From Cloacibacillus evryensis DSM 19522 (GTDB lineage: Bacteria > Synergistota > Synergistia > Synergistales > Synergistaceae), in NCBI RefSeq assembly GCF_000585335.1, contig NZ_KK073872.1, forward strand, positions 2,595,283-2,659,282: a stretch of 64,000 nucleotides of DNA. The letters are read 5' to 3'. Positions within the stretch are counted from its first letter, which is position 1. Each line of letters opens with the position of its first letter. Below, piece after piece: positions 41,176 to 59,256 of this stretch. The notes beneath the pieces are model-generated. The model saw only the letters and a list, made by a program, of their open reading frames with translations. It was not told where the DNA came from and did no database searches. A program made the translations under genes and the position numbers.

Positions 41176-42327
41176 TCATGGCAACGAGACATAAGGCCCC
41201 TGCGAAGGATACGCCGGGAGCCCCACAAATTCGCCGCCGCGAAAACCGGTCTCTCTCCGCGTCCTCCCGCGCCTCAATTCTCTCTTGCAGGCACGGGTTT
41301 TGTCGCTCGCCCGGCATCTCACGAGATCGACGCTTCGTTCGCAGAACCAGTCATAAACGGTATCCTCCGGCATCTCCTGTTTACGGAGCCGTTCAACGCT
41401 CGTACCGGCGATGAATAACGGGCCGGCCGGCTCGACCAGGTTCTCGCCGTCCGACAGACAGCGTTTGCGAAGCGATGCCAGCTCTTCCTCGCTATCTGCC
41501 GTCAATACGAGCATCGTTCTATTCTCCTGCCCGCACGAACCGCTGTCCATATAACCGGGAAGATAGACATGACGTTGTCCCAGCAGGAACAGATGCAGCC
41601 GCCCGATGGCGTCGTATATCTCCTCATGGCTCTTGCCGGCGGTGCGCAGGAAGAAGAGGCGGTCCGCGTTATTCATGTAGAATATGTCCTCCGGCAAGTG
41701 CGGCGTCTCGTGACAGCGGCGGCTCCTCAGCACCATATTGAAACTTTGGATGCAGAATTTCGCTCCGGCCGCCTCCGCCCAGCGCCACATCGCCGCGTCG
41801 CCCGGCGCGGCGCTCCCTCGCGCGGATGCGCCGCACAGGGGAAATCTCGCCAAAAACGACTTTACCAGCGGATGCGACGGCCAGCGATAGCTGACGCGCC
41901 CGTCGTCGTCATACCGCCACAGGCCGCCTCTTGAAAGCCCCGGAAGTACGGGGATCTTCTCGTCTAAAGAATACCCGTTGAAACCAGGCCGTCCGAGGAC
42001 GGCGCGCCCCATCAGGAGGCGAAGCCTGTTGTTCCAGAGCGCTTCCTTAGGATCGAACGGAGTTTCCGCGGCAAAGGCAGTAAGACGAAGGCGGTCGGCG
42101 CACCGAAGACGCTCCATATCTCCTTCGGGCGTAAGCACATATCCGCCGCCGGCTTTTCTAAGCAGCCCTTTTGCCGTAAGTTCATGCAGTAAATGAGGGG
42201 CTTTGCCGGCGAGAAGGAACGTTTCTTCGTCCCAGCAGGGAGAGCTCTCTCTAAACAGCAACAGCGAGCGCGTCATATCATCGGCGCGCGTATTTTCCAT
42301 TTCAGATATGCTCTCTATGCCATTCAT
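41176..42327 (-). CDS. hypothetical protein, possible winged-helix N-terminus
   Basis: A 383-residue protein of unknown family. Residues about 15-75 look like a winged helix (ETFLLAGKAPHLLHELTAKGLL, then a wing GGGYVLTPEGD). The middle part is rich in Trp, Arg and Cys with no recognised motif, and the C-terminus is strongly basic (about 345-365). It lies 27 bp behind the aminotransferase gene and is therefore co-transcribed with it. It may be a DNA-binding or redox-sensing protein; nothing firmer can be said. Confidence 0.6.
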   Translation of the reverse strand: MNGIESISEMENTRADDMTRSLLLFRESSPCWDEETFLLAGKAPHLLHELTAKGLLRKAGGGYVLTPEGDMERLRCADRLRLTAFAAETPFDPKEALWNNRLRLLMGRAVLGRPGFNGYSLDEKIPVLPGLSRGGLWRYDDDGRVSYRWPSHPLVKSFLARFPLCGASARGSAAPGDAAMWRWAEAAGAKFCIQSFNMVLRSRRCHETPHLPEDIFYMNNADRLFFLRTAGKSHEEIYDAIGRLHLFLLGQRHVYLPGYMDSGSCGQENRTMLVLTADSEEELASLRKRCLSDGENLVEPAGPLFIAGTSVERLRKQEMPEDTVYDWFCERSVDLVRCRASDKTRACKRELRRGRTRRETGFRGGEFVGLPAYPSQGPYVSLP

Positions 42328-42354: not shown

Positions 42355-43599
42355 CTACGCCCTCTCGGCCGCCGCCAACTTCACAGCCGTGGTGAATACC
42401 TCCACAGCCTGCCGGAGCTCCTCCAGCGGCGGATAGGTGGGGGCGATCCTGATTATGCTGTCCTGCGGATCGCTGCCGTGCGGGTATGTCGCGCCGGCCG
42501 GCGTCAGCTTGACTCCAGCTTCTTCACAGAGGCGGATTATTTTTTTCGCGCTGCCCTTCTGCGCCTCAAAACAGATGAAATATCCGCCCTTGGGTTTGCC
42601 CCAACGCGCGATGCCGAGGCCGCCGAGCTCGCGCTCCAGCTCCCGCAGCACCAGCTCAAACTTCGGGCGCACGATATCAGCGTGCTTCCGCATATGCTTT
42701 TCCACGGCTTCCTTATCAGGCAGGAAGCGCGTGTGGCGAAGCTGGTTCACCTTGTCATAACAGACGAGCTGATAGCGGATGAGGTCGCCCGCGCACTGGA
42801 TATTCGCGGGGCTTGCCGCCATCGCGCAGACGCCGCCGCCGGCAAAGGTTATCTTAGATGTGGATGTGAAGAGGAGCACCCTGTCAGCGTTCCCATGCCT
42901 GACGCAGGCGTCGTAGATGTTCGCGAGCGAATCCCGCTCGTCGTCGTACAGATGGTGCATACAATAGGCGTTGTCCCATATCAGGCGGAAATCCGGGACC
43001 GCCGCCATCGCGGCAAGCCGCTCGACGGTCTCGTCGGAATACGTAAAGCCTGTGGGATTTGAATACATCGGGACGCAGATCATCCCGCGCACTTCGGGGT
43101 CCTTAGCCAGCCTCTCGACCTCGTCCATATCGGGGCCGTCCTCGCGAGTCTCCACGGGGAGCATTTCTATCCCGTAAGTGTCGCAGATGTGGAAATGCCA
43201 GTCATAACCGGGAACCGGGCAGATAAATTTAACCTTGCCGAGCTTAGACCAGGGCGTGAACCCAGGCATCGGGCCGTTGATGAAACATCTTTTAAGCGCG
43301 TCTGAGATCATATTGATACTCGAACTTCCGCCTGCCAGGACCTGCTCCGCCGGCACGCCGAGTATTTCGCCAAAAAGGCGGCGCACCTCTGGTATCCCTT
43401 TATATTCGCCGTAATTGCGCACATCCATACCGTTTTCGCTGATAAAATTATTGTCATCCAGCGCGTGAAGCATCGGAATTGAGAGGTCGAGCTGTGCCGT
43501 CTCCGGTTTTCCTCTGGACATGTCGAGCTTCAGTCCAAGTTTTTTCAAACCTTCGTATTTTTTGCGAACTTCATCCAAATTAAGCTTGCTTACCGTCAT
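42355..43599 (-). CDS. MocR-type class I/II aminotransferase
   Basis: A 414-residue PLP enzyme of the bacterial aminotransferase family that lacks a MocR DNA-binding domain (Aminotran_MocR type). The PLP lysine is K249 in TSTSKITFAGGG; SNPTGFTYS (about 180-188) and DNAYCMHHL bind the cofactor. Some members transfer the aspartate amino group. It lies 139 bp behind the hydroxyacid dehydrogenase gene and 27 bp before the unknown protein. Confidence 0.9.
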   Translation of the reverse strand: MTVSKLNLDEVRKKYEGLKKLGLKLDMSRGKPETAQLDLSIPMLHALDDNNFISENGMDVRNYGEYKGIPEVRRLFGEILGVPAEQVLAGGSSSINMISDALKRCFINGPMPGFTPWSKLGKVKFICPVPGYDWHFHICDTYGIEMLPVETREDGPDMDEVERLAKDPEVRGMICVPMYSNPTGFTYSDETVERLAAMAAVPDFRLIWDNAYCMHHLYDDERDSLANIYDACVRHGNADRVLLFTSTSKITFAGGGVCAMAASPANIQCAGDLIRYQLVCYDKVNQLRHTRFLPDKEAVEKHMRKHADIVRPKFELVLRELERELGGLGIARWGKPKGGYFICFEAQKGSAKKIIRLCEEAGVKLTPAGATYPHGSDPQDSIIRIAPTYPPLEELRQAVEVFTTAVKLAAAERA

Positions 43600-43737: not shown

Positions 43738-44715
43738 TTATTTATTGACGATGTTGATGCATTTGCCGGCGATATATGCCTTGGCATTGGCCACGGCGCA
43801 ATCGATGATCCTTTGCCGGCATTCTTTGGAAGCCCAGGAAATATGCGGCGTGATAATGCAGTTCTTGGCGTGAAGAAGGGGGTTATCGCCTGTTATCGGC
43901 TCGGATGAGACTACGTCGACAGCCGCCGCGGCGACCTTGCCTGAGTTCAGCGCGTCCGCCAGATCCTGTTCAACCACTATCTGTCCGCGGCTGTTGTTGA
44001 CGATGATCACGCCGTCCTTCATTTTCTCGATATTGCTCTTGTTGATAAGCCCTTTACTGAATGAGTTGAGCGGCATATGCATCGCGATAATATCGGCGGA
44101 GGCAAGCAACGTTTCAAAATCAACGTAGTCTGCCACCGCGCGCCCGGCATTCGTGGGATAAGGGTCATAGGCCAGCACCTTCATGCCGAGAGCGCCGGCT
44201 GTAGCGGCGGTATGGACGCCGATCTTGCCGAGGCCTAAAATCCCCAGGGTTTTTCCCTCCAGTTCGATCAGCGGATAATCCCAATAGCACCAGTCGACGT
44301 TATTTTCCCACTTTCCCTCATGTACCGTCGCGCTGTGATGGCCTACATGGAGGCAGGCTTCCAGCATCAGCGCGATCGCATACTGGCTCACAGCGGCGGT
44401 GCCATAAGTCGGGATGTTGGCGACGGGGATGCCTTTCTCTTTCGCGTAGGCGACATCGATTATGTTGTAGCCCGTCGCCAGCATATTAATGAATTTTACG
44501 CTCGGGCAGGCGTCGATAATATTTTTCGTGATCGGCACCTTTTTCGTATAAACCAATTCGGCGTCGCCAATGCGGTCTATCACCTCTTGCTCGTCCGTCT
44601 GCGACGTGCGGTCATACACGGTCAGGTCTCCCAAAGCGCCTAATTCTTTCCAGCTTAAATCATCCGAATGTACTGTGTAGCCATCCAAAACAACGATCTT
44701 CTTCTTGTCCTGCAT
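43738..44715 (-). CDS. D-2-hydroxyacid dehydrogenase (hydroxypyruvate/glycerate type)
   Basis: A 325-residue NAD-dependent oxidoreductase. The nucleotide motif is GILGLGKIGVHTA (about 157-169). The catalytic Arg is in NNSRGQIVVE, the Glu in VVSSEPI and the His in TPHISWAS. It reduces a 2-oxo acid such as hydroxypyruvate or glyoxylate. Together with the following aminotransferase it could convert serine- or alanine-type amino acids to hydroxy acids. The exact substrate is uncertain. Confidence 0.9.
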   Translation of the reverse strand: MQDKKKIVVLDGYTVHSDDLSWKELGALGDLTVYDRTSQTDEQEVIDRIGDAELVYTKKVPITKNIIDACPSVKFINMLATGYNIIDVAYAKEKGIPVANIPTYGTAAVSQYAIALMLEACLHVGHHSATVHEGKWENNVDWCYWDYPLIELEGKTLGILGLGKIGVHTAATAGALGMKVLAYDPYPTNAGRAVADYVDFETLLASADIIAMHMPLNSFSKGLINKSNIEKMKDGVIIVNNSRGQIVVEQDLADALNSGKVAAAAVDVVSSEPITGDNPLLHAKNCIITPHISWASKECRQRIIDCAVANAKAYIAGKCINIVNK

Positions 44716-45165: not shown

Positions 45166-46287
45166 TCATTTATAGACTATCGGCATCCTCCTGCCAAGCT
45201 GACAGAGAACTTCGATAGAGACGCTGCCGCAGCTCTCGGCGAATTCCTCCGCGGAAATGTATTCGCCCTCCTGTCTGCCGATTATCACAACCTCGTCGTT
45301 TTCGCGCGGATCGTCCAAGTCAGTAATGTCTATCATGAATTGATCCATGCAGACCTTACCGACGATAGGGCAGCGCCTGCCGTGCAGCAGCACCGCCCCC
45401 TTGTTTCCGAGGCTGCGGCGCACGCCGTCCACGTAGCCCATGGGTACCACGCCTATCAATGACTCCCGCTTTGTCTCAAAAGTCCCGTCGTAACCGATCT
45501 TCGTCCCGCTCGGTACTCTCTTTACGGAGGCAAGTTTCGCCTTTATTTCCATCGCGGGATATACCTCAACTCCCGGCAATCCCATAAACTCGGGGCCGGC
45601 ATAGAGGCCGTAGACCGCCATTCCCGGGCGCACCATGTCAAGCTGCATCTCCGGGTAGAGGATCGCAGCGGCGCTGTTGCTGATGTGTTTTAGCGGGATC
45701 TTTATCCCCGCTGCCTCAAGCTCGTCGGTAAAACTCGTGAACTTAGCAAACTGACCGCGGCAATAGCTGTCGTCGCGGACGCTGGAAGCAGTCGCAAAAT
45801 GCGAGAATATCCCTTCGATCCTGATGTTGGGCATCGCCGCTATGCGCGCTATCTCTTCCATCGCCTCCGGTCCGGGGACAAAGCCAAGGCGAGCCATGCC
45901 GGTGTCTATTTTGATGTGAACCGACGCGATCTTGCCGGCTTTAGCCGCGCCCTCGTTCAGCACGCGTGCCTGCTCAGCCGAGAAGATCGCCGGCATCAGG
46001 TCGTATTCCAGCACCAAAGGATAGTCCTCGTCAAAGGAACGTCCAAGTATGAGTATCGGCTCCCTGAAGCCCGCATCGCGAAGTTCTATGCCCTCCTGCG
46101 GGATAGCCACCGCAAAATAACTTGCCCCCTCCGCCTCGAGGACCCGCGCCACGGGAATGACTCCATGACCGTAACCGTTGGCCTTTACGACCCCCATCAA
46201 TTTAGTCGGAGGTGTCGTGCGCCCCATGAGGTATCTCACATTTTTCCGGATCTGGTCCAGGCTGACCTCCGCCCACGCTGCGCGCAT
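45166..46287 (-). CDS. alr: alanine racemase
   Basis: A 373-residue PLP enzyme started at the ATG at 46287, which follows the larA-like stop by 1 bp. The PLP lysine is K35 in VVKANGYGHG, and the catalytic tyrosine is in GTKIGYDGTF near residue 262. It interconverts L- and D-alanine. Its tight coupling with a LarA-like racemase behind an AraC regulator suggests a catabolic rather than a cell-wall role. Confidence 0.92.
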   Translation of the reverse strand: MRAAWAEVSLDQIRKNVRYLMGRTTPPTKLMGVVKANGYGHGVIPVARVLEAEGASYFAVAIPQEGIELRDAGFREPILILGRSFDEDYPLVLEYDLMPAIFSAEQARVLNEGAAKAGKIASVHIKIDTGMARLGFVPGPEAMEEIARIAAMPNIRIEGIFSHFATASSVRDDSYCRGQFAKFTSFTDELEAAGIKIPLKHISNSAAAILYPEMQLDMVRPGMAVYGLYAGPEFMGLPGVEVYPAMEIKAKLASVKRVPSGTKIGYDGTFETKRESLIGVVPMGYVDGVRRSLGNKGAVLLHGRRCPIVGKVCMDQFMIDITDLDDPRENDEVVIIGRQEGEYISAEEFAESCGSVSIEVLCQLGRRMPIVYK

Positions 46288-46288
46288 A

Positions 46289-47530
46289 TTACGACACCGG
46301 ATCAACAAGCGTCAGTCTTTCATGAGAGGCCACATGATCGAGCAGCGCGTCGGAGACCTCTATTATTCCAAGTTCCAGCGTGTTTTTGATTTTCACGATT
46401 TTCAGCCTGTCCCTGTCGGCTCCCCTGGCCAATTGAATGGCGAAGCGCAGCGCCTCTTCTTCCGATTCGGCGGTGATCGGGATCTTCGAGCCTTCCGGCG
46501 ATTTGACGGCCAGCGCGTTGGCGTACATCAGGGGAAGATCCAGCTTATTCCGAACCTTACGTGTTATCACGTCAAAAATGCCCACGCCGACGGCGTTGCC
46601 GTGAGATTCATCAGTGACGTCAAAGAGGACCATGCGCTTGATGTTCGGCACCGGCAGGACGAATTTTTTGAGCAGGAAGCTTTTGCCGAGAATGTTGGGG
46701 TCAAAACCGGAGCCGGAGATGTTTTTGCCGATCTCTTCGACTATCAGGACGTCTATGTCGGGAATCATCAGCGTAGGCATATTGCCTTTCGCGATTTTTA
46801 CCAGCTCTTTTTCCCGTTCGACGATCCTTTCGGCTGGGATAGCCTCGATCATCGCGGTTTCGTCATAGGCGTTTTCAAGTATCGCCACGCCGAATCCGAC
46901 GTGGGCGCGTCCCATGATCATCTGCGCGGCCTCGATCAGAATATCGGCGAAATTGTCAAAATCCGCCTCGTGCACCGAGGTGCAGCCGACTTGGTTGCCA
47001 AGTCCGATAACCAGCATCTTGCAGATGCCGCTCTGTATCTCCCCGACGAAATCAGTGTGCAATTTTACCCTGTTGATGGGAACGACCAGATCAGCGCCCA
47101 GCGCGACGGAGTCAAAGTATACGTTGATACCGCCGGACGTTTTTCCTATGTGGGTCACATCCACCGAGGTGACCACCTCGACCCCCATATTCTTTTCCGT
47201 GATCCCGTACGCGGCGAGAACTTCCCGCTGTCCCTCCGGCGTACCTCCGCCATGGCTGCCCATGGCGGAGACGATGAACGGTTCGCCGCCAAGTTTTTTG
47301 ATTTGTACGATTACCTCTTTCACGATCTTTTCAAGGTTCTTGATGCCCCGGCTGCCTACCGCCACGGCGACCTTCGCGCCGGGCTTGATTTTCCCGGCAA
47401 TTTCTTTTTTCGTAATCTCTTGTTCTATTTGCGCCTTGATATCGTCAAGCCTCGGCCTGGCAAAACTCTGCCGGACTTTGTGCATTGCCGGAAGAGGGTA
47501 ATTCAGTTGTTCTTCAAGTAATATCGGCAT
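46289..47530 (-). CDS. LarA-like nickel-pincer racemase family protein (DUF2088)
   Basis: A 413-residue protein started at the ATG at 47530 behind AGGAGGATG; the frame continues upstream to 47680 without a site. Typical segments are SAMGSHGGGTPEGQREVL, VVPINRVKLHTDF and GICKMLVIGLGNQVG. LarA uses a nickel-pincer nucleotide to racemise lactate, and relatives act on other 2-hydroxy acids. The maturation genes larBCE are not in the window. It is coupled to alr, so it may racemise the hydroxy-acid counterpart of a neighbouring substrate. Confidence 0.8.
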   Translation of the reverse strand: MPILLEEQLNYPLPAMHKVRQSFARPRLDDIKAQIEQEITKKEIAGKIKPGAKVAVAVGSRGIKNLEKIVKEVIVQIKKLGGEPFIVSAMGSHGGGTPEGQREVLAAYGITEKNMGVEVVTSVDVTHIGKTSGGINVYFDSVALGADLVVPINRVKLHTDFVGEIQSGICKMLVIGLGNQVGCTSVHEADFDNFADILIEAAQMIMGRAHVGFGVAILENAYDETAMIEAIPAERIVEREKELVKIAKGNMPTLMIPDIDVLIVEEIGKNISGSGFDPNILGKSFLLKKFVLPVPNIKRMVLFDVTDESHGNAVGVGIFDVITRKVRNKLDLPLMYANALAVKSPEGSKIPITAESEEEALRFAIQLARGADRDRLKIVKIKNTLELGIIEVSDALLDHVASHERLTLVDPVS

Positions 47531-47719
47531 TTTTTCATCCTCCTCATAAAATAAATATGCAGTAATTCCGTCTAAAGCGGCGCAAAGCATCACAGAAAAA
47601 GGGTTGGCCGAAAAAGTTCGCGCCAATCCCTTATCGTTTAATTTCGAGCCGCTCGGCCATCCGGCATAAACCTGATACAAACTTAGGGTGAATGAGGACC
47701 AGGATGTCGAATATATGCG

Positions 47720-48571
47720 TTATGATTTTGCCGTACGCCAGCTGAACTCCGTCGAGGAAGTCAGGAGTTTTGAATATCGTTTAGGTGATATTCCCTCTAT
47801 TTTGGTAAAGGTGCTGATAAAGTAGCTTATGCTTTTGAAGCCCACCATCTCGCCCACAATGTTCACGCTGTAGCCTTCCCGCAGAAGTCCCTTGGCCTTG
47901 AACACCCTCACGTAGGTGATGTATGTTCTTAACGTGATGCCCGTCACGCTTTTAAAGGTGCGTCACAGATGCGACTTGCTGATAAAGAACATATCGGCGA
48001 GGCTGTCCAGAGAAAGATCCTCGGCATAGTGCTCCTGGATATACTGGATGACCGGAGTTATCCTGTCCGGAGATTTCTCGCTGCGCTGAAGCCGGCTCGT
48101 CTTCATGGTAGGCTCATACAGCGAGTTAATATAAATGAGTATTTCGGACAGGCAGATCTTGCTGTAAACTTCCCTGCCGTAAGCGGAGCACTCCGGGTCA
48201 AGGTAGTACGCGAGTCTTTTGATCTGTTTCAGCAAGCCTTCCAACTCGTCTTCGCCGAGCTGGCAGCGGTGGTTGAAATTCCGGTGGTCTCGAAAACAGG
48301 CGGCAAGGTCAAAATTTGCGGTGGAGACTCCCTTTACCTCCTCCGGATCGAAGTGGATCAGGCAGAACTGGTAGGGTACTTCGTTGTCTTTGCCCACGCT
48401 GCGGTGAAAATCCGTATTATTTATGACAAACAGAGAACCGCGCCGAATGGGGTATACCTCGTTGTTAATGTACATTTCACCATCTCCGGAGAGCGTCAGC
48501 AGGATTTCCTGCTCTTCATGAAAATGCAGGTTAAGCTTACTCCACTCCTGAGTGCGAAAAAGAACAAACAT
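47720..48571 (-). CDS. AraC family regulator with in-frame UGA (putative selenocysteine or nonsense mutation)
   Basis: A single frame of 283 codons from the ATG at 48571 is interrupted only by UGA at codon 203 (47963-47965). Residues 1-130 form a cupin-like sensing domain (HFHEEQEILLTLSGDGEM, FVINNTDFHRSV). The C-terminal part is an AraC helix-turn-helix pair: the UGA falls in SKSHL-U-RTFKSVTG, where family members often have Cys or Ser, and the rest (GEMVGFKSISYFISTFTKIEGISPKRY) is intact. An SECIS-like stem-loop follows. Without readthrough the protein would lose its DNA-binding domain. It heads the larA-alr genes. Confidence 0.7.
47931..47950 (-). promoter_or_regulatory. SECIS-like stem-loop after the AraC UGA codon
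   Basis: The minus-strand arms AGCGTGA and TCACGTT (one G-U pair) enclose the 6-nt loop CGGGCA. The loop begins 19 nt after UGA and has G in its second position, both within what bacterial SECIS elements show. Confidence 0.4.
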
Positions 48572-49038
48572 CGAGACACCCCCCTTTCTGTATTAACAAT
48601 TCGCTCTGCGGCAATACGACTACGGCGGCGCGTATTTTTAAGCTGCAAATATTTTATACTTTAATCATAAAAATTGATAGCGTACAATATCAATTTCATT
48701 ATATTTGCAGCTCCTCATTGCTCGCCGTCCCGGGTATGGGCGGAAGGAAAGGGGGCATCCCTGTATATTTTTGTTCCTCCGCCGCCTGCGCCGTGGGGAG
48801 ACGAAGCTGACGGGAACGCCAGCAAGGCGGCAAAACAAAAAGTCCCGCTGGAAAGGGGCGCCCCCGTCGTTGTTTGAAATTTTTCCGGGTACTGTTCGGA
48901 GATCGCCGGAAGTGAAGGCTGAAGCGCTGACTGGTTTAACGCGATGATATTTCCATTGCTTGCCGGCTATTATTTTTTCAAGGTGCGGGAAACACATGCA
49001 GTCATCAACGATAAGCTCAGAACAGCGACGACCGTCCC
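48572..49038. other. 467-bp intergenic region
   Basis: It holds the araC-type promoter and ribosome site (AAGGGGGG) on the left and the 3' region of the small TRAP-associated gene on the right. No small gene, strong terminator or riboswitch was recognised. Confidence 0.45.
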
Positions 49039-49266
49039 CTATTCGAGGCCGACGTCGATCCTCGCCTCCTCGGCGCTGATAGAACCTGCCTTTGCCATAT
49101 TCTTATCACGGAAATAGACCACGCCGAATACGGCGGAATATGAGGCCAGCAGCCAGAGGACGATAAACAGGCCGGGGCGCAAATTCAGTAAACGTGATTC
49201 CCTCATAATCACCGCGAAAATCGCAAAAGCAACCAAGAATGACCACCTAATATATTTTCTTTTCAT
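49039..49266 (-). CDS. small two-helix membrane protein of the TRAP operon
   Basis: A 75-residue protein with two hydrophobic segments (about residues 8-22 and 31-51) and an acidic tail. It starts 10 bp behind the fused TRAP permease, so it is co-transcribed with it. No family was recognised. Because the permease already contains the DctQ-like part, this may be an extra accessory helix pair. Confidence 0.6.
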   Translation of the reverse strand: MKRKYIRWSFLVAFAIFAVIMRESRLLNLRPGLFIVLWLLASYSAVFGVVYFRDKNMAKAGSISAEEARIDVGLE

Positions 49267-49276
49267 AGCTTATCAA

Positions 49277-51235
49277 TTACACCTCCTGTTTTTGGCCCTG
49301 TCCAAAACTAAGATCTTCTTTTTTGGCAGCGAGATAATTGAGCGTCAGGATGATCACGCCCCCCGCCAGCCCCGCAAAGGTCAGATCCCAGCGCGGGCTT
49401 AAGGAGATCAAGGAGCAGACCGCCAACATGGCGCGGAAAAGGATATTGATCTTCGTAAAAGCATATCCTTCGACAACAGCCGCGAAGCAAACTACCGCTA
49501 TCAGGCATCCGACACTGTTAATGACAATATCGGAGACGGTGCCGATCATGATCAGCCCGGGGTTATATACGAAGGTCGCAAAGACCAGAAGCCCCGGAAG
49601 GCCGATGACGAATCCTCTGGCCGCGGTTTTCATCGGGCCGGCCTTGGCTATGCCAGCCGCGGTGAAAGAGGCGATCGCCACAGGCGGAATAATATTTGAG
49701 AGCACGCCCCAGAAGAGCGCGTACATGTGAGCCGCCAGGGCGGGAACGCCCATCTGCATAATGGGAGGGATGACTGTTACGACCATGATTATATACACCG
49801 CGGTAGTGGTCAGTCCCATGCCCAATATAACGGCCAGGACCGCAGCCAGAAGCATGGCCAGCCACAGATGCCCGCCGGAAATGCTCACGATCTGCGTTCC
49901 CAATTTCAGTCCTACGCCGGATAACGTCGAAGAGCTGACGATGATCCCCGCCGCGGCGCAGGCCATGGCGGTCACGACCGTCGCCTTGCCCGCCGCCTCG
50001 CAGACGGAGATGATATTTTCGGCGCCGGGACGGCTGGATTTTTTCAGGAAGCTGACTATGAACAGGCCGACTATCGACCAGAAACAGGCCGTAGTGGCCG
50101 TGTAGCCTGAAACAAGAAAATAGACGAGGAGGCCGATCGGGAGCAGCAGATGCGCGCCATTCTTCAAGACATCTTTCACCACCGGCATCTCCTCTTTGCT
50201 CAAAGGAGGAATCTTCGCCTTTCTGGCGTGGAAGTCCACGGCGGCGAAAAGGGCAAAATAGTAGCACAGCGCGGGAATGGCGGCAGCCAGCGCCACCGTC
50301 GCGTAGGAAAGGCCCAGGTAAGCGGCGACGACGAAGGCGGTCGCTCCCATAATGGGAGGCGTGAACATACCGCCGGTGGAAGCGCAGGCTTCAACGCCGC
50401 CGGCGTATGTGCTCTCATAACCGACCCTTTTCATCAGAGGAATCGTAAATGTGCCGGTGGTGGTGACGTTGGCGCAGGAACTGCCCGAGAGCATGCCGAA
50501 GAAGGCGCTGCCGACCACCGCCGCTTTGGCGGGACCGCCGACTTTTGAGCCAAAGGCTCCCAGGGCCAGATCGGTAAAGGTACGCCCGGTGCCGGTCTCT
50601 TCCATGAAAGCTCCGAATATCAGGAATAGGACGACGAAAGAGGCGATCGTGCCGAGGGGCATGCCAAAAATACCGCCCTCCTGCATGAACATATCGAGAA
50701 CAAGCGACTTAAGTGTAGTGCTCGGCCCATAAAAGATCCAGAACATTTTTTCGCTGTAGAGCGCCTGGAAGGTAAAGAAAACGGCGATAAGCACCATCGG
50801 CACTCCCAGAGCGCGCCGCGTGCCCTCCAGGACCAGAAGCCAGAGGATGACCCCCATGCAGATGTCGGCCGTGTTGGGAGAGGTCACCTGCCGCAATTCA
50901 AAGGCTTCAATGTCCCAGAGATAGTAAACTTCCAGCGCGACGGACAGGATGATGCACGCGATGTCGATCACAGTCCAAATATTTGGCTTATCGCTCCACG
51001 ACTTTCTGTTGAGCGGAAAGAGCGTAAAACATAGCAGCAGCACGCCGGTCAGATGCAGGGACCTGTAAAAATGCGCCTCCGGGTGGCCGAACATCCCAGT
51101 ATAAAGGTGAAAGGTGACAAAAGCAAAAGACAGGCCGACGATGAGAAAAGCCAGCAGCTCTCTTGCCCCAAACCTACGGGCGTTGAACAGGCATCCCCAT
51201 GCGGTCGTTGAGTTAGATTCTTCTGTGTGAGCCAT
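49277..51235 (-). CDS. TRAP transporter fused permease (4TM+12TM), third type
   Basis: A 652-residue fused DctQ-DctM permease of the TAXI-associated type, with SGSSCANVTTTGTFTIPLM and GMGLTTTAVYIIMV segments. It is clearly diverged from the two permeases at 649-7514. The matching TAXI binding protein is encoded about 280 bp upstream on the same strand. The transporter lies between the second Grd component B and the AraC-LarA-Alr group, so it probably imports the compound they use. Confidence 0.94.
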   Translation of the reverse strand: MAHTEESNSTTAWGCLFNARRFGARELLAFLIVGLSFAFVTFHLYTGMFGHPEAHFYRSLHLTGVLLLCFTLFPLNRKSWSDKPNIWTVIDIACIILSVALEVYYLWDIEAFELRQVTSPNTADICMGVILWLLVLEGTRRALGVPMVLIAVFFTFQALYSEKMFWIFYGPSTTLKSLVLDMFMQEGGIFGMPLGTIASFVVLFLIFGAFMEETGTGRTFTDLALGAFGSKVGGPAKAAVVGSAFFGMLSGSSCANVTTTGTFTIPLMKRVGYESTYAGGVEACASTGGMFTPPIMGATAFVVAAYLGLSYATVALAAAIPALCYYFALFAAVDFHARKAKIPPLSKEEMPVVKDVLKNGAHLLLPIGLLVYFLVSGYTATTACFWSIVGLFIVSFLKKSSRPGAENIISVCEAAGKATVVTAMACAAAGIIVSSSTLSGVGLKLGTQIVSISGGHLWLAMLLAAVLAVILGMGLTTTAVYIIMVVTVIPPIMQMGVPALAAHMYALFWGVLSNIIPPVAIASFTAAGIAKAGPMKTAARGFVIGLPGLLVFATFVYNPGLIMIGTVSDIVINSVGCLIAVVCFAAVVEGYAFTKINILFRAMLAVCSLISLSPRWDLTFAGLAGGVIILTLNYLAAKKEDLSFGQGQKQEV

Positions 51236-51518: not shown

Positions 51519-52541
51519 TTATTTAACTTTTATGCCCTTCTCTTTAAGATACTTCAACGCGCCGGGGTGAAGAGGGATATTGGCTACCTTGGGAAGGTCC
51601 TGCGGATTACAGATCTTCGGCCAGCCTCTCGCCTCCGTGGCTTTAAAGGAATCTTTATGGTATCCGGATTCATAAATGGTCTTGGTGACGATATAGACGA
51701 AATCTTCCGGAAGGTCGGCGTTGCAGACTATGGTCGTGGGAATGGCGATGGTCTTCACGGGGTAATTCTGACGGTCATATGTGTTAGGCTGCATTGTGGC
51801 TTTTACATAACCGGTCATCGAGGGGTCGGCCAGCACTTTATCGGCGTGGGCGTCGTCTATGCTGAGGAATTTTACGCCGGGCTGCACGATAAGGTTGACG
51901 ATGCTCGGCATAAGGCCGCCGTAGGTGCCGATGAAGTCCATATGTCCGTCCTGCATCATCGTGGAGGCGTCGTCCCATCCGAGGGCCATGACCTCTCCGC
52001 CCGCGGCTTTGATATCGTTAAACGACATGCCATAGGCCTTAAAGAGCGCCTCGATCATCATCCTGTCGGTTGACGCGAGCTTGCCGCCGTTGACCTTCTT
52101 GTTTTTCAGCTGGCTGATGTTTTTGATATCGGATTTTTCCGGGACGATCAGCTGCGCGAGCATCAGTTCCTGGGTTCCGACCACGCGCAGATTTGTCAGC
52201 GGCTTTTCATAGGGAGCCATTCCCTTATAGGCCAGGTACTGGTTCTGCGCGGTGGTCAGCGTAAGCACCATTTCTTTGCCTTCGTGCACGGCGGAGACGT
52301 TGAAAGCGCCGCCGGTCGACTGAACTGAGCAGGGGGCATTTATGCCGGCTTTTTTCAAAGCGGCTTCCAGCTTTGACGCCAGAACGGCAGAAGCGGGATA
52401 CCAGATACCTCCGGGGAACCCTGTGCCGATTTTAACGAATTTAGGATAAACCGGTGCCGCCGCTGCACTGCTGCAGCAAGATAAAACAAGGCTAAGACAA
52501 AAAACGAATGCGGCTACTATACTAATTTTCGAACGGGACAT
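51519..52541 (-). CDS. TAXI family TRAP solute-binding protein
   Basis: A 340-residue periplasmic protein with a signal peptide (about 1-28, with a Cys pair CC that could allow lipid attachment) and the family start FVKIGTGFPGGIWYPASAVLA. The domain is complete. It works with the fused permease downstream. The ligand is not predictable from sequence; the nearby reductase genes suggest an amine or N-methylated amino acid, which is inference. Confidence 0.92.
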   Translation of the reverse strand: MSRSKISIVAAFVFCLSLVLSCCSSAAAAPVYPKFVKIGTGFPGGIWYPASAVLASKLEAALKKAGINAPCSVQSTGGAFNVSAVHEGKEMVLTLTTAQNQYLAYKGMAPYEKPLTNLRVVGTQELMLAQLIVPEKSDIKNISQLKNKKVNGGKLASTDRMMIEALFKAYGMSFNDIKAAGGEVMALGWDDASTMMQDGHMDFIGTYGGLMPSIVNLIVQPGVKFLSIDDAHADKVLADPSMTGYVKATMQPNTYDRQNYPVKTIAIPTTIVCNADLPEDFVYIVTKTIYESGYHKDSFKATEARGWPKICNPQDLPKVANIPLHPGALKYLKEKGIKVK

Positions 52542-52738: not shown

Positions 52739-54037
52739 TTAGAAAAATGTCTGCTCGGTCACATCCGTGGAGATAGCTTTAAGGGCGCGCTCGACGAGGT
52801 TTTTCTGCATTGCCTTCTGCTCTTCAGGCGTAAGCAGAGGGTCGCTGAAGGGAGACACAAGTCCGTAACCGGGGACTATGCGGTTCGCTCCAGTAACTTT
52901 GGAGACGGAAACAAGGTTGGTAACATGCACGATCGGGAAGCCGGCTCTGTCTATTTCTTTTACCATCGTTGCACCGCAACGAGTGCAGCTTCCTCAGGTG
53001 CTGACGAGGACAACGGCGTCGACCGCTTCCTTTTTGAGCGCCTCGGCGACCTCTTTGCCCATCCTGCGGGCGTCTTTGAGGGTGGCCAGGTTGCCGGTGG
53101 TCGAGTAGAAGGTGTTGCAGAACTTGCCGATCACCCCGTCTTTCTCAAATTCCCTGAATGAAGACAGCGGGAACAGAACTTCGGGATTGGCGTTGACGAA
53201 ATCTGTGTTGATGCCGCAATGTACGCTGTAGAAGTCGCCCTTCACAAGAACATCCTTGCCGGTGACATCGTATGTCGCCCAGATGGAGCAGGTGCCTCCG
53301 GGAATACGGTCTGGGTTGCCGAGGGGAACAAGTCCGCCTGTGCTGACAAAGGCGACCTTGGCTTTGCTGAGATCGCCGACGGCTTTGGAGGGAACGACAT
53401 TGTCGCGCGGCTCGATCTTAAGCTCGGTGACGTAGGGCTGGCCGGCGAGCTTCGTGAGAAGCATGTCGACGGCGCGGTCGCCCGCGGTCTTCTCCGCGAA
53501 TACCTCTTTTCTGATTCCGTGCGAGAAGTAACCTTCGGCGTCTGCCCAGAGGATCTCTTCGCCGGCGGCGAGTTTGTTGGCGAGAGCCGCGATCGCGGTC
53601 GAGTCGTGGCGCATCTTGGCGGCGCTGCGGCTGCCTTTCATAATGTAGAAGGGGTCTTCTCTGAAGAGCGCGACTCCGGGATTCTCTTCATTCATGCTTG
53701 TGACGGCGGTCACGCCGTATGTTTCATGGGCGAATTTGCACATCTCGCCGCAGCTCACGCCGTAACGGCCGGAGCTGAACGCGGGGCCGGCGAGAACGAG
53801 GTCGAATTCTTTGCCTTCCAGGAATCCGGCGATCCGCTTGAGAGATTCTTCTTTATGGCTGGACATGGCATTGTCGCCGCAGATCACGGTGTGCGTGATT
53901 TCCACACCTTTCAGCATCGCCTGCACGCCCTGCGCGGGGCCGACGGCTCCTTCTTTAATGATGGGCTCAAAGTCGGCGTCGCTTTCGCCGCCCACGCCGC
54001 CAAAGAACTGGTTGATGTAATATATCGCTTTTTTCAT
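52739..54037 (-). CDS. Grd component B selenoprotein subunit (GrdB/GrdF/GrdH type), second copy
   Basis: A 432-residue selenoprotein read through UGA at codon 348 (52994-52996). The motif is U-x2-C-x2-C (U-GSC-TRC). It starts with ATG at 54037 behind AGGAGG, 31 bp after its grdE-like partner. The subunit of component B activates an amine substrate and transfers the carboxymethyl group to selenoprotein A. It differs widely from the glycine-specific copy at 55877-57184, and its operon has no glycine riboswitch. A sarcosine, betaine or other specificity is likely. Confidence 0.92.
52967..52981 (-). promoter_or_regulatory. SECIS apical stem-loop of the second grdB
   Basis: CGTTGC-GGT-GCAACG lies 13-27 nt after the UGA codon. 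It is identical in sequence and distance to the element in the other grdB. Confidence 0.8.
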
Positions 54038-54067: not shown

Positions 54068-55387
54068 TTAGTAATCCTTCACCGTCTTGGTCGTGAAACC
54101 GGCGCAGTTGGTGCTGTCCACGATCATGCAGCCGTTTACGATCAGGGAACCGTCAGGGCGCAGGCTGGGACCGTATTTCTCGTGAGCGGTCCATGCGGCG
54201 TGATAGAAGTCGCGCGTTACCGACGCGAGATCGCCGATCACGTTCTTCATCGGCGGGAATTCGAAGACGGTACCCGAGTCGCCGGTGGAGACGATGGCGT
54301 CGGCGATAGGATCGAGCATCGATTTGCCGCTGTGCTCAGGCGTGAGGCCGACGGTCTTGATGCCGCGTTTCTCCAGCTCGGCGCACATGAAGAAGAAGTC
54401 TACGTCGTAGTTGCTGCCGCCGGCGACGGAGGCGATGATCGCGCCGTCAAGCTTCAGCATGGAGGCCAGCTCGCCGCCGGCGACCTTTACGGCCTGCTTG
54501 AAGTGGTTGGGGACGTCGACCGCAAAGGGGATCGCGCCGACAAAGTTGATCGTCTTGCCGTGCTCCTCATAAAGGCGCTTGATTATCGGCCAGTTCTGAT
54601 AGGTGTATGTGCAGTAGCCTTCGCCATAAAGACCGCCCTGGTTGGTGATCTGTCCGTCGAACACCGCGTTGGGGTGCATAAGGAAGGGCAGCATATTTTC
54701 GCAGTCGATGCCGAATATCCTCTCGTTGAAGAACTTATCCTTGCCGACCTGCGCCTTGATCTGGAAGAAGAGCGCGACTCTCGGAAGGCCCTTCTTTTCC
54801 GCCTCTTCAGCGCCGGGCTCCAGCTCGTAGCATTCCCAGTCTTCCGGTTCCAGCCCTTTCAGGGAAGTCGCCACATAGTCCGCCAGGTAATGCGCGGCCA
54901 TTTTCAGCGGCGCTTCATTTCTGAAAGGCTGATCCAGCTTTGTCGGGTTGATCATTTCGGCATATACCACCAGGTTTACCATTTTGGCAAATATGGAGTG
55001 CTCCGCGCCGGGGCCGCTCATGTCGAGCATCCCTTCGGCGGCCTGTGAATATTTGCCGCAGGAGATGACGCTGATGCCCTTCATCGCGTAGAGGTCGCCG
55101 TCGCCGCAGCTCTCGATCGTCAGGCCGCCGGTGACGCCGGGGAAGGTGGCGCGTCCGTCGGGGCGGAAGCGCGGCTCCAAACCGACCTTGCACGGCAAAA
55201 TGCGTGTGTCGTCGCCTGGGCGAACAATATATATCTCTATATTCTTCAGTTCATTATCCGGGTCCACAGAGGCGATCGCCTCTTTTTTGTTGATAGTCAG
55301 CACACCGCTTTTGAATGAGGTCTTTTCGCCAAACACTATGTCGTTGACATGAAAGTTCCCTATTCTCAGTTTTTTCGAATGTTCCAA
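54068..55387 (-). CDS. Grd component B proprotein subunit (GrdE/GrdG/GrdI type), second copy
   Basis: About 440 residues. GTG starts at 55405 and 55396 and a TTG at 55387 are possible; the last has the best spacing from GAGGAG. It is homologous to the glycine-specific GrdE along its length (DMSGPGAEHSIFAKMVN, SLRPDGSLIVNG). At the site where GrdE has the Asn-Cys pair that is cleaved to form the pyruvoyl group, this protein has Gly-Gly. It therefore probably stays uncleaved, as in reductases whose substrates need no Schiff base. It partners the selenoprotein downstream. Confidence 0.9.
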   Translation of the reverse strand: MEHSKKLRIGNFHVNDIVFGEKTSFKSGVLTINKKEAIASVDPDNELKNIEIYIVRPGDDTRILPCKVGLEPRFRPDGRATFPGVTGGLTIESCGDGDLYAMKGISVISCGKYSQAAEGMLDMSGPGAEHSIFAKMVNLVVYAEMINPTKLDQPFRNEAPLKMAAHYLADYVATSLKGLEPEDWECYELEPGAEEAEKKGLPRVALFFQIKAQVGKDKFFNERIFGIDCENMLPFLMHPNAVFDGQITNQGGLYGEGYCTYTYQNWPIIKRLYEEHGKTINFVGAIPFAVDVPNHFKQAVKVAGGELASMLKLDGAIIASVAGGSNYDVDFFFMCAELEKRGIKTVGLTPEHSGKSMLDPIADAIVSTGDSGTVFEFPPMKNVIGDLASVTRDFYHAAWTAHEKYGPSLRPDGSLIVNGCMIVDSTNCAGFTTKTVKDY

Positions 55388-55876
55388 ATTCCTCACACTC
55401 CTCACAGTTTACAGAAAAAATACTTTTAATATGCTGATATTAAAATCTGACGCTCCGAGAAACGCTTCTCGCACTTTTAAAGAACAAATATCGGCCGGAA
55501 TAGAAATACTCACGCGCGTCAAGTAATTCTTTTCAAGCTTAGTTTGCTGCGTTATTGATCTATAAAGGTGCGAAAGAACCCTTCTTCTACGAGCTGCGTT
55601 TATTTTACTTAAAAAAAGAAAACCCGTGTTTCAGCTTTTTGCCATAAAAATATCAAAATCGGCTCACAAGAGGCACACGGCGGATCAGAGTGAAGAGTGC
55701 GGGTTTTTTCAACAGGTACCGCGGAGAGTGGACGCCGCCGGCGCGGGCCCGGCGCGAAACTGCTGCGCAGGCGGTCTGTGACCGCTCAGAAAACCCCGCG
55801 GGGATGTTAGGGGATAAAAAATTGAGGAGCGGCTGGCCGCCGTTCCTCAATTTTTTATTGTTGACTTTAAAAACTC
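55388..55876. other. 489-bp intergenic region between the two grd operons
   Basis: The right part holds the terminator of the glycine-specific operon; the rest is AT-rich and must carry the promoter of the second operon. No selenoprotein A (grdA) frame, with or without UGA readthrough, and no riboswitch motif was found here. Confidence 0.5.
55815..55857. terminator. strong bidirectional terminator behind the first grdB
   Basis: The hairpin ATTGAGGAGCGGC/GCCGTTCCTCAAT has A-run and T-run on the two sides. Confidence 0.75.
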
Positions 55877-59033: not shown

Positions 59034-59150
59034 ACGTGTCCAGAGTGCTGTCCGGCGGCAATCCTTATGCCTGAGAGTTTCAACCTTCGCGGTTTTGCCC
59101 CTTCGGCGCCCATGATGTTATAACGTGGACGGGTCTCTCTTGCCGCTTTC
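59034..59150 (-). ncRNA. glycine riboswitch (single aptamer with ghost helix)
   Basis: The P1 arms GCGGCAA (59140-59146) and TTGCCGC (59055-59061) enclose the conserved aptamer parts AGAGACC, GCCGAAGGGGCAA and CTCTCAGGCA. The tail GGACAGCACTCTGGA matches the linker that follows type I aptamers. Only one aptamer is present, followed by the grdX start, so it should switch glycine reductase expression on when glycine is abundant. Confidence 0.93.
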
Positions 59151-59256
59151 ATTCAGCTTGGCCTTAGTATATCAAGAGCGATTTTCTTGTCAACAGCTTT
59201 CGGAAGCATTTGTGATATTTTACACCAACTTTTTGTGTTTTTTTATACTAGGGCAT

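Follow-up and report, generated by a model that had tools for sequence, protein, structure and literature searches.

The AraC-type regulator gene and its neighbourhood

The window analysed here (the whole 64,000-nt stretch of DNA), which comes from a selenium-dependent gut bacterium, carries on its minus strand a regulator gene of the AraC/XylS family, which we call araC-U (47720..48571). The gene consists of 283 codons followed by TAA and contains a single internal TGA, at codon 203 (47963..47965, minus strand; context SKSHL-U-RTFK), which is predicted to encode selenocysteine (Sec). The first-pass annotation had described such a frame, and it is present, running from 48571 to 47720. A strong ribosome-binding sequence, AAGGGGGG, precedes the ATG start codon. 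The family assignment rests on Pfam matches (HTH_AraC, 3.5e-18; HTH_18, 4.4e-18; AraC_binding, 1.1e-10) and on orthologs (L002, L003). In the Pfam layout an AraC ligand-binding cupin domain (residues 6–121) is followed by two helix-turn-helix motifs (residues ∼178–268). The fold of the C-terminal double helix-turn-helix matches structures 6swi, 3oio and 1bl0, and the N-terminal cupin-type ligand domain matches the RhaR regulatory domain 5u93 with Z 15.5. If the UGA is left undecoded, the product, delimited from the ORF list and the domain ranges, has 202 codons (47963..48571, minus strand) and includes, beyond the cupin ligand domain, no more than a part of the first helix-turn-helix. An antisense ORF on the plus strand (47969–48664) was considered as the true gene and dismissed, because the Pfam domains lie in the minus frame and because, in the genome G001 (see below), a stop interrupts the plus frame.

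The gene order around araC-U is common to the window and the genomes G001 and G004. It runs, all on the minus strand, from the GrdE/GrdG-type partner subunit GrdE2 (54068..55405) and the GrdB-type reductase selenoprotein GrdB2 (52739..54037; TIGR01918) through a TAXI-type TRAP solute-binding protein (51519..52541) and a TRAP transporter fused permease (49277..51235) to araC-U, and then to a nickel-pincer cofactor-dependent isomerase of group 22 (46289..47680; NF052515, 495 bits against a cut-off of 400), a D-2-hydroxyacid dehydrogenase (43738..44715) and an aspartate aminotransferase of type Ic (42355..43599). The regulator thus sits among genes of selenium-dependent enzymes that it may control. 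The few hundred bases ahead of araC-U are mostly not conserved and should contain its promoter. The isomerase gene follows closely, after 39 nt in the window and with an overlap of the two genes in G004, so araC-U and the genes from it onward, the isomerase included, probably form one operon.

Several other features of this region can be mentioned. A 75-residue membrane-type ORF located right after the TRAP permease (49039–49266, minus strand) is kept in G001 and G004 and is possibly an accessory transporter subunit. An alanine-racemase-like gene between the isomerase and the dehydrogenase (45166–46308, minus strand) is missing from that place in G001 and G004. A 383-residue ORF (41176–42327, minus strand) has no Pfam or NCBIfam match; a relative with 36% identity is situated at the cluster end in G004, and none was found in the G001 region. 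A glycine riboswitch (RF00504, 65.7 bits; 59049–59152, minus strand) lies ahead of GrdX, GrdE1 and GrdB1, so this first reductase operon is probably controlled by glycine, unlike the araC-U cluster. Elsewhere in both Cloacibacillus genomes, AraC genes (L070, L071, L072 and L073) directly follow grdB, with Met or Thr at the column occupied by Sec in araC-U; in Cloacibacillus, grdB seems to be accompanied regularly by an AraC regulator.

Conservation of the TGA codon among relatives

In a protein comparison across 53 genomes of the family, close matches to araC-U were found in four, including the genome of the window itself (G000). The only other Cloacibacillus genome compared, G001, is likely to be that of Cloacibacillus porcorum CL-84. 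Its ortholog has 71% protein identity at a dS of about 1.3, and its sole TGA occupies the same codon. The G004 ortholog (52%) has TGC at the position of codon 203; TGC or TGT stands there in G015 and in four genomes from a second family (35–42%). In this close group of eight the column is always Cys or TGA, and all six members lacking TGA have TGC or TGT. Selenoprotein families are usually marked by a Cys/Sec pair; because Cys or TGA occurs without exception among the eight relatives, we regard the codon 203 column as such a pair. Both kinds of support named in the first-pass annotation were observed, namely a TGA conserved together with a hairpin in a near relative (G001) and an exchange between TGA and TGC (TGC or TGT in six others).

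Among AraC proteins at large the same column is variable (Ser, Cys, Ile, Leu, Met, Thr and others). A family-wide conserved Cys at the Sec position was considered and rejected, since the column varies broadly and Cys is invariant only near the araC-U subfamily. The TGA carriers found belong to two species of one genus. Contigs of GTDB genomes yielded nine distant relatives and no additional TGA member, and viral contigs yielded no further members of araC-U. None of the HTH_18 matches listed for 188 genomes of the phylum, in which high scores were favoured, had an internal stop; other AraC genes that had appeared to carry one (TGA, TAG or TAA, in G036, G001 and G000) proved to have ordinary C-terminal stops. 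On a tree of the eight relatives the TGA label is consistent with one origin, the fork with G004 having no resolution. In Cloacibacillus, Sec has probably taken the place of a Cys that was ancestrally present in the first helix-turn-helix, within its recognition helix.

Selection on both sides of the TGA codon

Between the window genome and G001, ω amounts to 0.141 for the 202 codons preceding the TGA and to 0.117 for the 77 codons following it. Differences at first and second codon positions after the TGA number 22; when neutral change at the third-position rate was simulated in 5000 runs, the mean was 78 and the minimum 57. Both frames remained open in 26 of the 5000 neutral runs. Judging by ω and by the simulation, the stretch beyond the TGA is both translated and under selection, which contradicts the nonsense mutation that the first-pass annotation had offered as its alternative.

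A candidate bSECIS hairpin downstream of the UGA

The hairpin that the first-pass annotation described is likewise present: a stem of 7 bp (AGCGUGA/UCACGUU) closes the loop CGGGCA (47931..47950, minus strand), whose start is 19 nt past the UGA and whose second position is G. The published geometry of bacterial SECIS (bSECIS) elements has a loop of 3–9 nt, a stem of 4–16 bp, a distance of 16–37 nt from the UGA and a G within the first two loop positions (PMC13188914). The araC-U hairpin fits this geometry in both species (loop of 6 nt beginning with CG, stem of 7 bp, 19 nt). Its stem-loop energy is −6.4 kcal/mol, and the grdB controls range from −4.3 to −8.0 kcal/mol. Folding of the 45–55 nt after the UGA gave −7.4 kcal/mol in the window genome and −15.1 kcal/mol in G001; of the published limit, an energy of at most −7.5 kcal/mol, the window genome falls short by 0.1, and G001 passes it. 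No Rfam family was matched by the hairpin.

Taken alone, the hairpin is weak evidence for Sec and proves nothing, because 678 of 6513 coding positions of the window (10%) bear an equally or more stable hairpin at an allowed spacing. When the two peptides were recoded synonymously 5000 times, such a hairpin arose in 79 and 33 cases (0.7–1.6%). The 18 nt of the hairpin form the longest identical DNA run in araC-U between the window genome and G001, and the best conserved 14-codon segments of DNA in this comparison (280 codons) start at codons 200–202. One pair of the stem is G-U in one species and A-U in the other, so that pairing is preserved. Given the codon conservation of the gene, the five consecutive identical degenerate codons in the hairpin have a probability of about 0.04, so we count this conservation as supporting and not as overwhelming. 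We place the hairpin above chance because it is conserved together with the TGA in a second species and because purifying selection continues past the TGA. The conserved TGA with selection downstream of it appears to be the main evidence for Sec, hairpin conservation being secondary.

A hairpin at the araC-U spacing was seen in none of the six Cys-bearing close relatives. Orthologs having Cys and no hairpin, which had been named in advance as evidence against Sec, occur only at the greater distances in this group (35–52% identity), as is usual for Cys/Sec pairs.

Selenium machinery and grdB controls

Genes for tRNA-Sec, selB and selA were found in G000, G001 and G004, as was selD, which has one TGA of its own in each of the three. 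In the same genomes 17 grdB genes served as controls; in these the matched part ends at the UGA and a hairpin lies 17–18 nt downstream. The first-pass annotation had stated that UGA is decoded as Sec in two grdB genes close by, and both window copies indeed match Rfam SECIS_4 (at 52956–52993 in the case of GrdB2, the positive control with its in-frame UGA). Three grdB hairpins (L065, L066 and L067) have the loop CGGGU, near the CGGGCA of araC-U. An absolute selenium requirement was reported for C. porcorum MFA1, a sister strain (PMC10838667).

Two of the GrdB proteins (L065 and L066) are divergent, with the motif STUGTSSRGG versus STUGTCTRCG and without the UxxCxxC cysteines. In both genomes the divergent GrdB adjoins a second, partial GrdB match.

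Location of residue 203 in the DNA-binding domain

The profile alignment places codon 203 opposite Gln45 of MarA (SKWHLQRMFK in MarA, SKSHLURTFK in araC-U). In an AlphaFold2 model computed with Cys substituted for Sec (mean pLDDT 76.9), residue 203 is within a helix formed by residues 199–210, and residues 167–272 of the model align with residues 9–115 of MarA in its DNA complex 1bl0 (Z 14.3, 105 residues, rmsd 2.2). MarA contacts bases through Trp42, Gln45 and Arg46 (PMC3315485). The location in a recognition helix, as initially claimed, thus holds, the aligned MarA residue being one that contacts bases. Homology to MarA leads us to predict that Sec203 faces the DNA.

Interpretation of the in-frame UGA

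From the UGA shared by two species, the selection downstream of it, the hairpin, the Cys-bearing relatives and the complete Sec machinery, we conclude that UGA 203 is most probably read as selenocysteine (with a probability of about 0.9), and it is nearly as probable that Sec is incorporated in a working AraC regulator. The hairpin just past UGA 203 would act as the bacterial SECIS element.

A nonsense mutation, with a Cys codon turned into TGA in a dying gene, or a sequencing error, would need only one substitution from TGC or TGT, exactly the codons borne by the relatives. Such an origin appears extremely improbable given that the identical TGA is present in two separate genomes, that neither an additional stop nor a frameshift is observed and that ω past the TGA is as low as 0.117 at a dS of about 1.3. 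The UGA might instead be a true stop with the 202-residue fragment conserved, or SelB-independent readthrough might place an ordinary amino acid there. A C after UGA makes for a leaky context, both species have UGAC, and the fragment could in principle work by dimerisation. Against these readings, which we consider quite improbable, selection over the 77 codons after the UGA is as strong as before it, a separate downstream product would be without the first helix-turn-helix, the relatives carry Cys, for which Sec substitutes, and the hairpin is conserved at SECIS spacing.

Other alternatives accept Sec and concern its role. In a selenium-rich organism, Sec could be a near-neutral swap for a structural or DNA-contacting Cys, having no part in sensing. 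The column is variable in the family and therefore needs no catalytic thiol, araC-U has neither a CxxU nor a UxxC motif, and G004 manages with Cys. Still, Cys is invariant in the close relatives despite the variable family column, the costly Sec has been retained over a dS of about 1.3, and araC-U adjoins genes of selenium-dependent enzymes; we think such a swap possible, though less likely than not. A redox switch, in which the DNA is released once the recognition-helix selenol becomes oxidised or enters a selenenyl-sulfide, would suit a position equivalent to the base-contacting Gln45 of MarA, and selenols oxidise faster than thiols. The motif contains no adjacent partner Cys, however, and the organism is anaerobic; we rate a redox switch about as likely as the near-neutral swap.

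The reading that we tentatively prefer for the role of Sec, though we would give it somewhat less than even odds, is that decoding of the UGA gates the cluster by selenium, with the regulator itself as the selenium sensor and Sec at a base-contacting position. The full-length DNA-binding regulator would be made only when Sec-tRNA is available; because the full-length form would depend on Sec-tRNA, the amount of regulator would report selenium status. With the UGA read as a stop, the 202-residue fragment would retain the ligand domain and be without the DNA-reading parts; about 285 bases ahead of the isomerase start would then stay untranslated, and isomerase expression could fall as a result. 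Only if its selenoenzyme can be made would the cluster (GrdB2/GrdE2, TRAP transporter, isomerase, dehydrogenase and aminotransferase) be activated or released. Oxidation of the selenol could modulate DNA binding as well, as a compatible second function; the gating and redox readings are not mutually exclusive. The gene context makes it plausible that araC-U couples selenium supply to gene control. G004 has Cys in the regulator though the adjoining grdB2 retains its UGA, and because of this pairing we regard a Sec-containing regulator as an option and not a requirement for the cluster.

Significance and comparison with known systems

To our knowledge, the known selenoproteins are nearly all redox enzymes or thiol-handling proteins. 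Sec in a DNA-reading helix, if true, would extend the use of selenium to the control of transcription. A table published in 2026 with 119 prokaryotic selenoprotein families and subfamilies contains no AraC or helix-turn-helix member (PMC13188914), and no Sec-containing transcription factor was found in the open-licence literature; an AraC-type selenoprotein seems to be of a kind absent from the latest published list. For C. porcorum CL-84, the deep-Sep screen reported 18 known selenoproteins and no new candidates. New candidates are retained in that screen only when Cys occurs in two or more of their ten best hits (PMC12013277), and the variable AraC column could fail this filter. The absence of a new candidate from the published C. 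porcorum list would mean that current selenoprotein screens can miss such genes. A regulator completed only with Sec-tRNA would, if true, be a direct answer to the question of how selenium is sensed in bacteria and archaea, which is posed for HrsM as well (PMC11097638).

Four known systems can be compared with araC-U. HrsM/LysR_Se is similarly a transcription regulator linked to selenium status and selenoprotein genes; it differs in belonging to the LysR family, with archaeal and bacterial members, and in not being described as a selenoprotein (PMC11097638, PMC5322559). The FmdB-family protein is the only putative regulator named in the 2026 selenoprotein table and in this respect resembles araC-U, but its entry (TIGR02605, motif UxxU) is not of the AraC or helix-turn-helix type (PMC13188914). 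GrdB-type reductases (component B of glycine, sarcosine or betaine reductase) have, like araC-U and in the same genomes, a UGA for Sec served by a short downstream hairpin. They are, however, enzymes with UxxCxxC near the C-terminus and not regulators, and their hairpin belongs to Rfam SECIS_4 whereas that of araC-U matches none of the Rfam families. The HTH_18 proteins of the MarA, Rob and AraC type have the domain and the fold in common with araC-U, but they use standard amino acids only, and MarA has no ligand domain.
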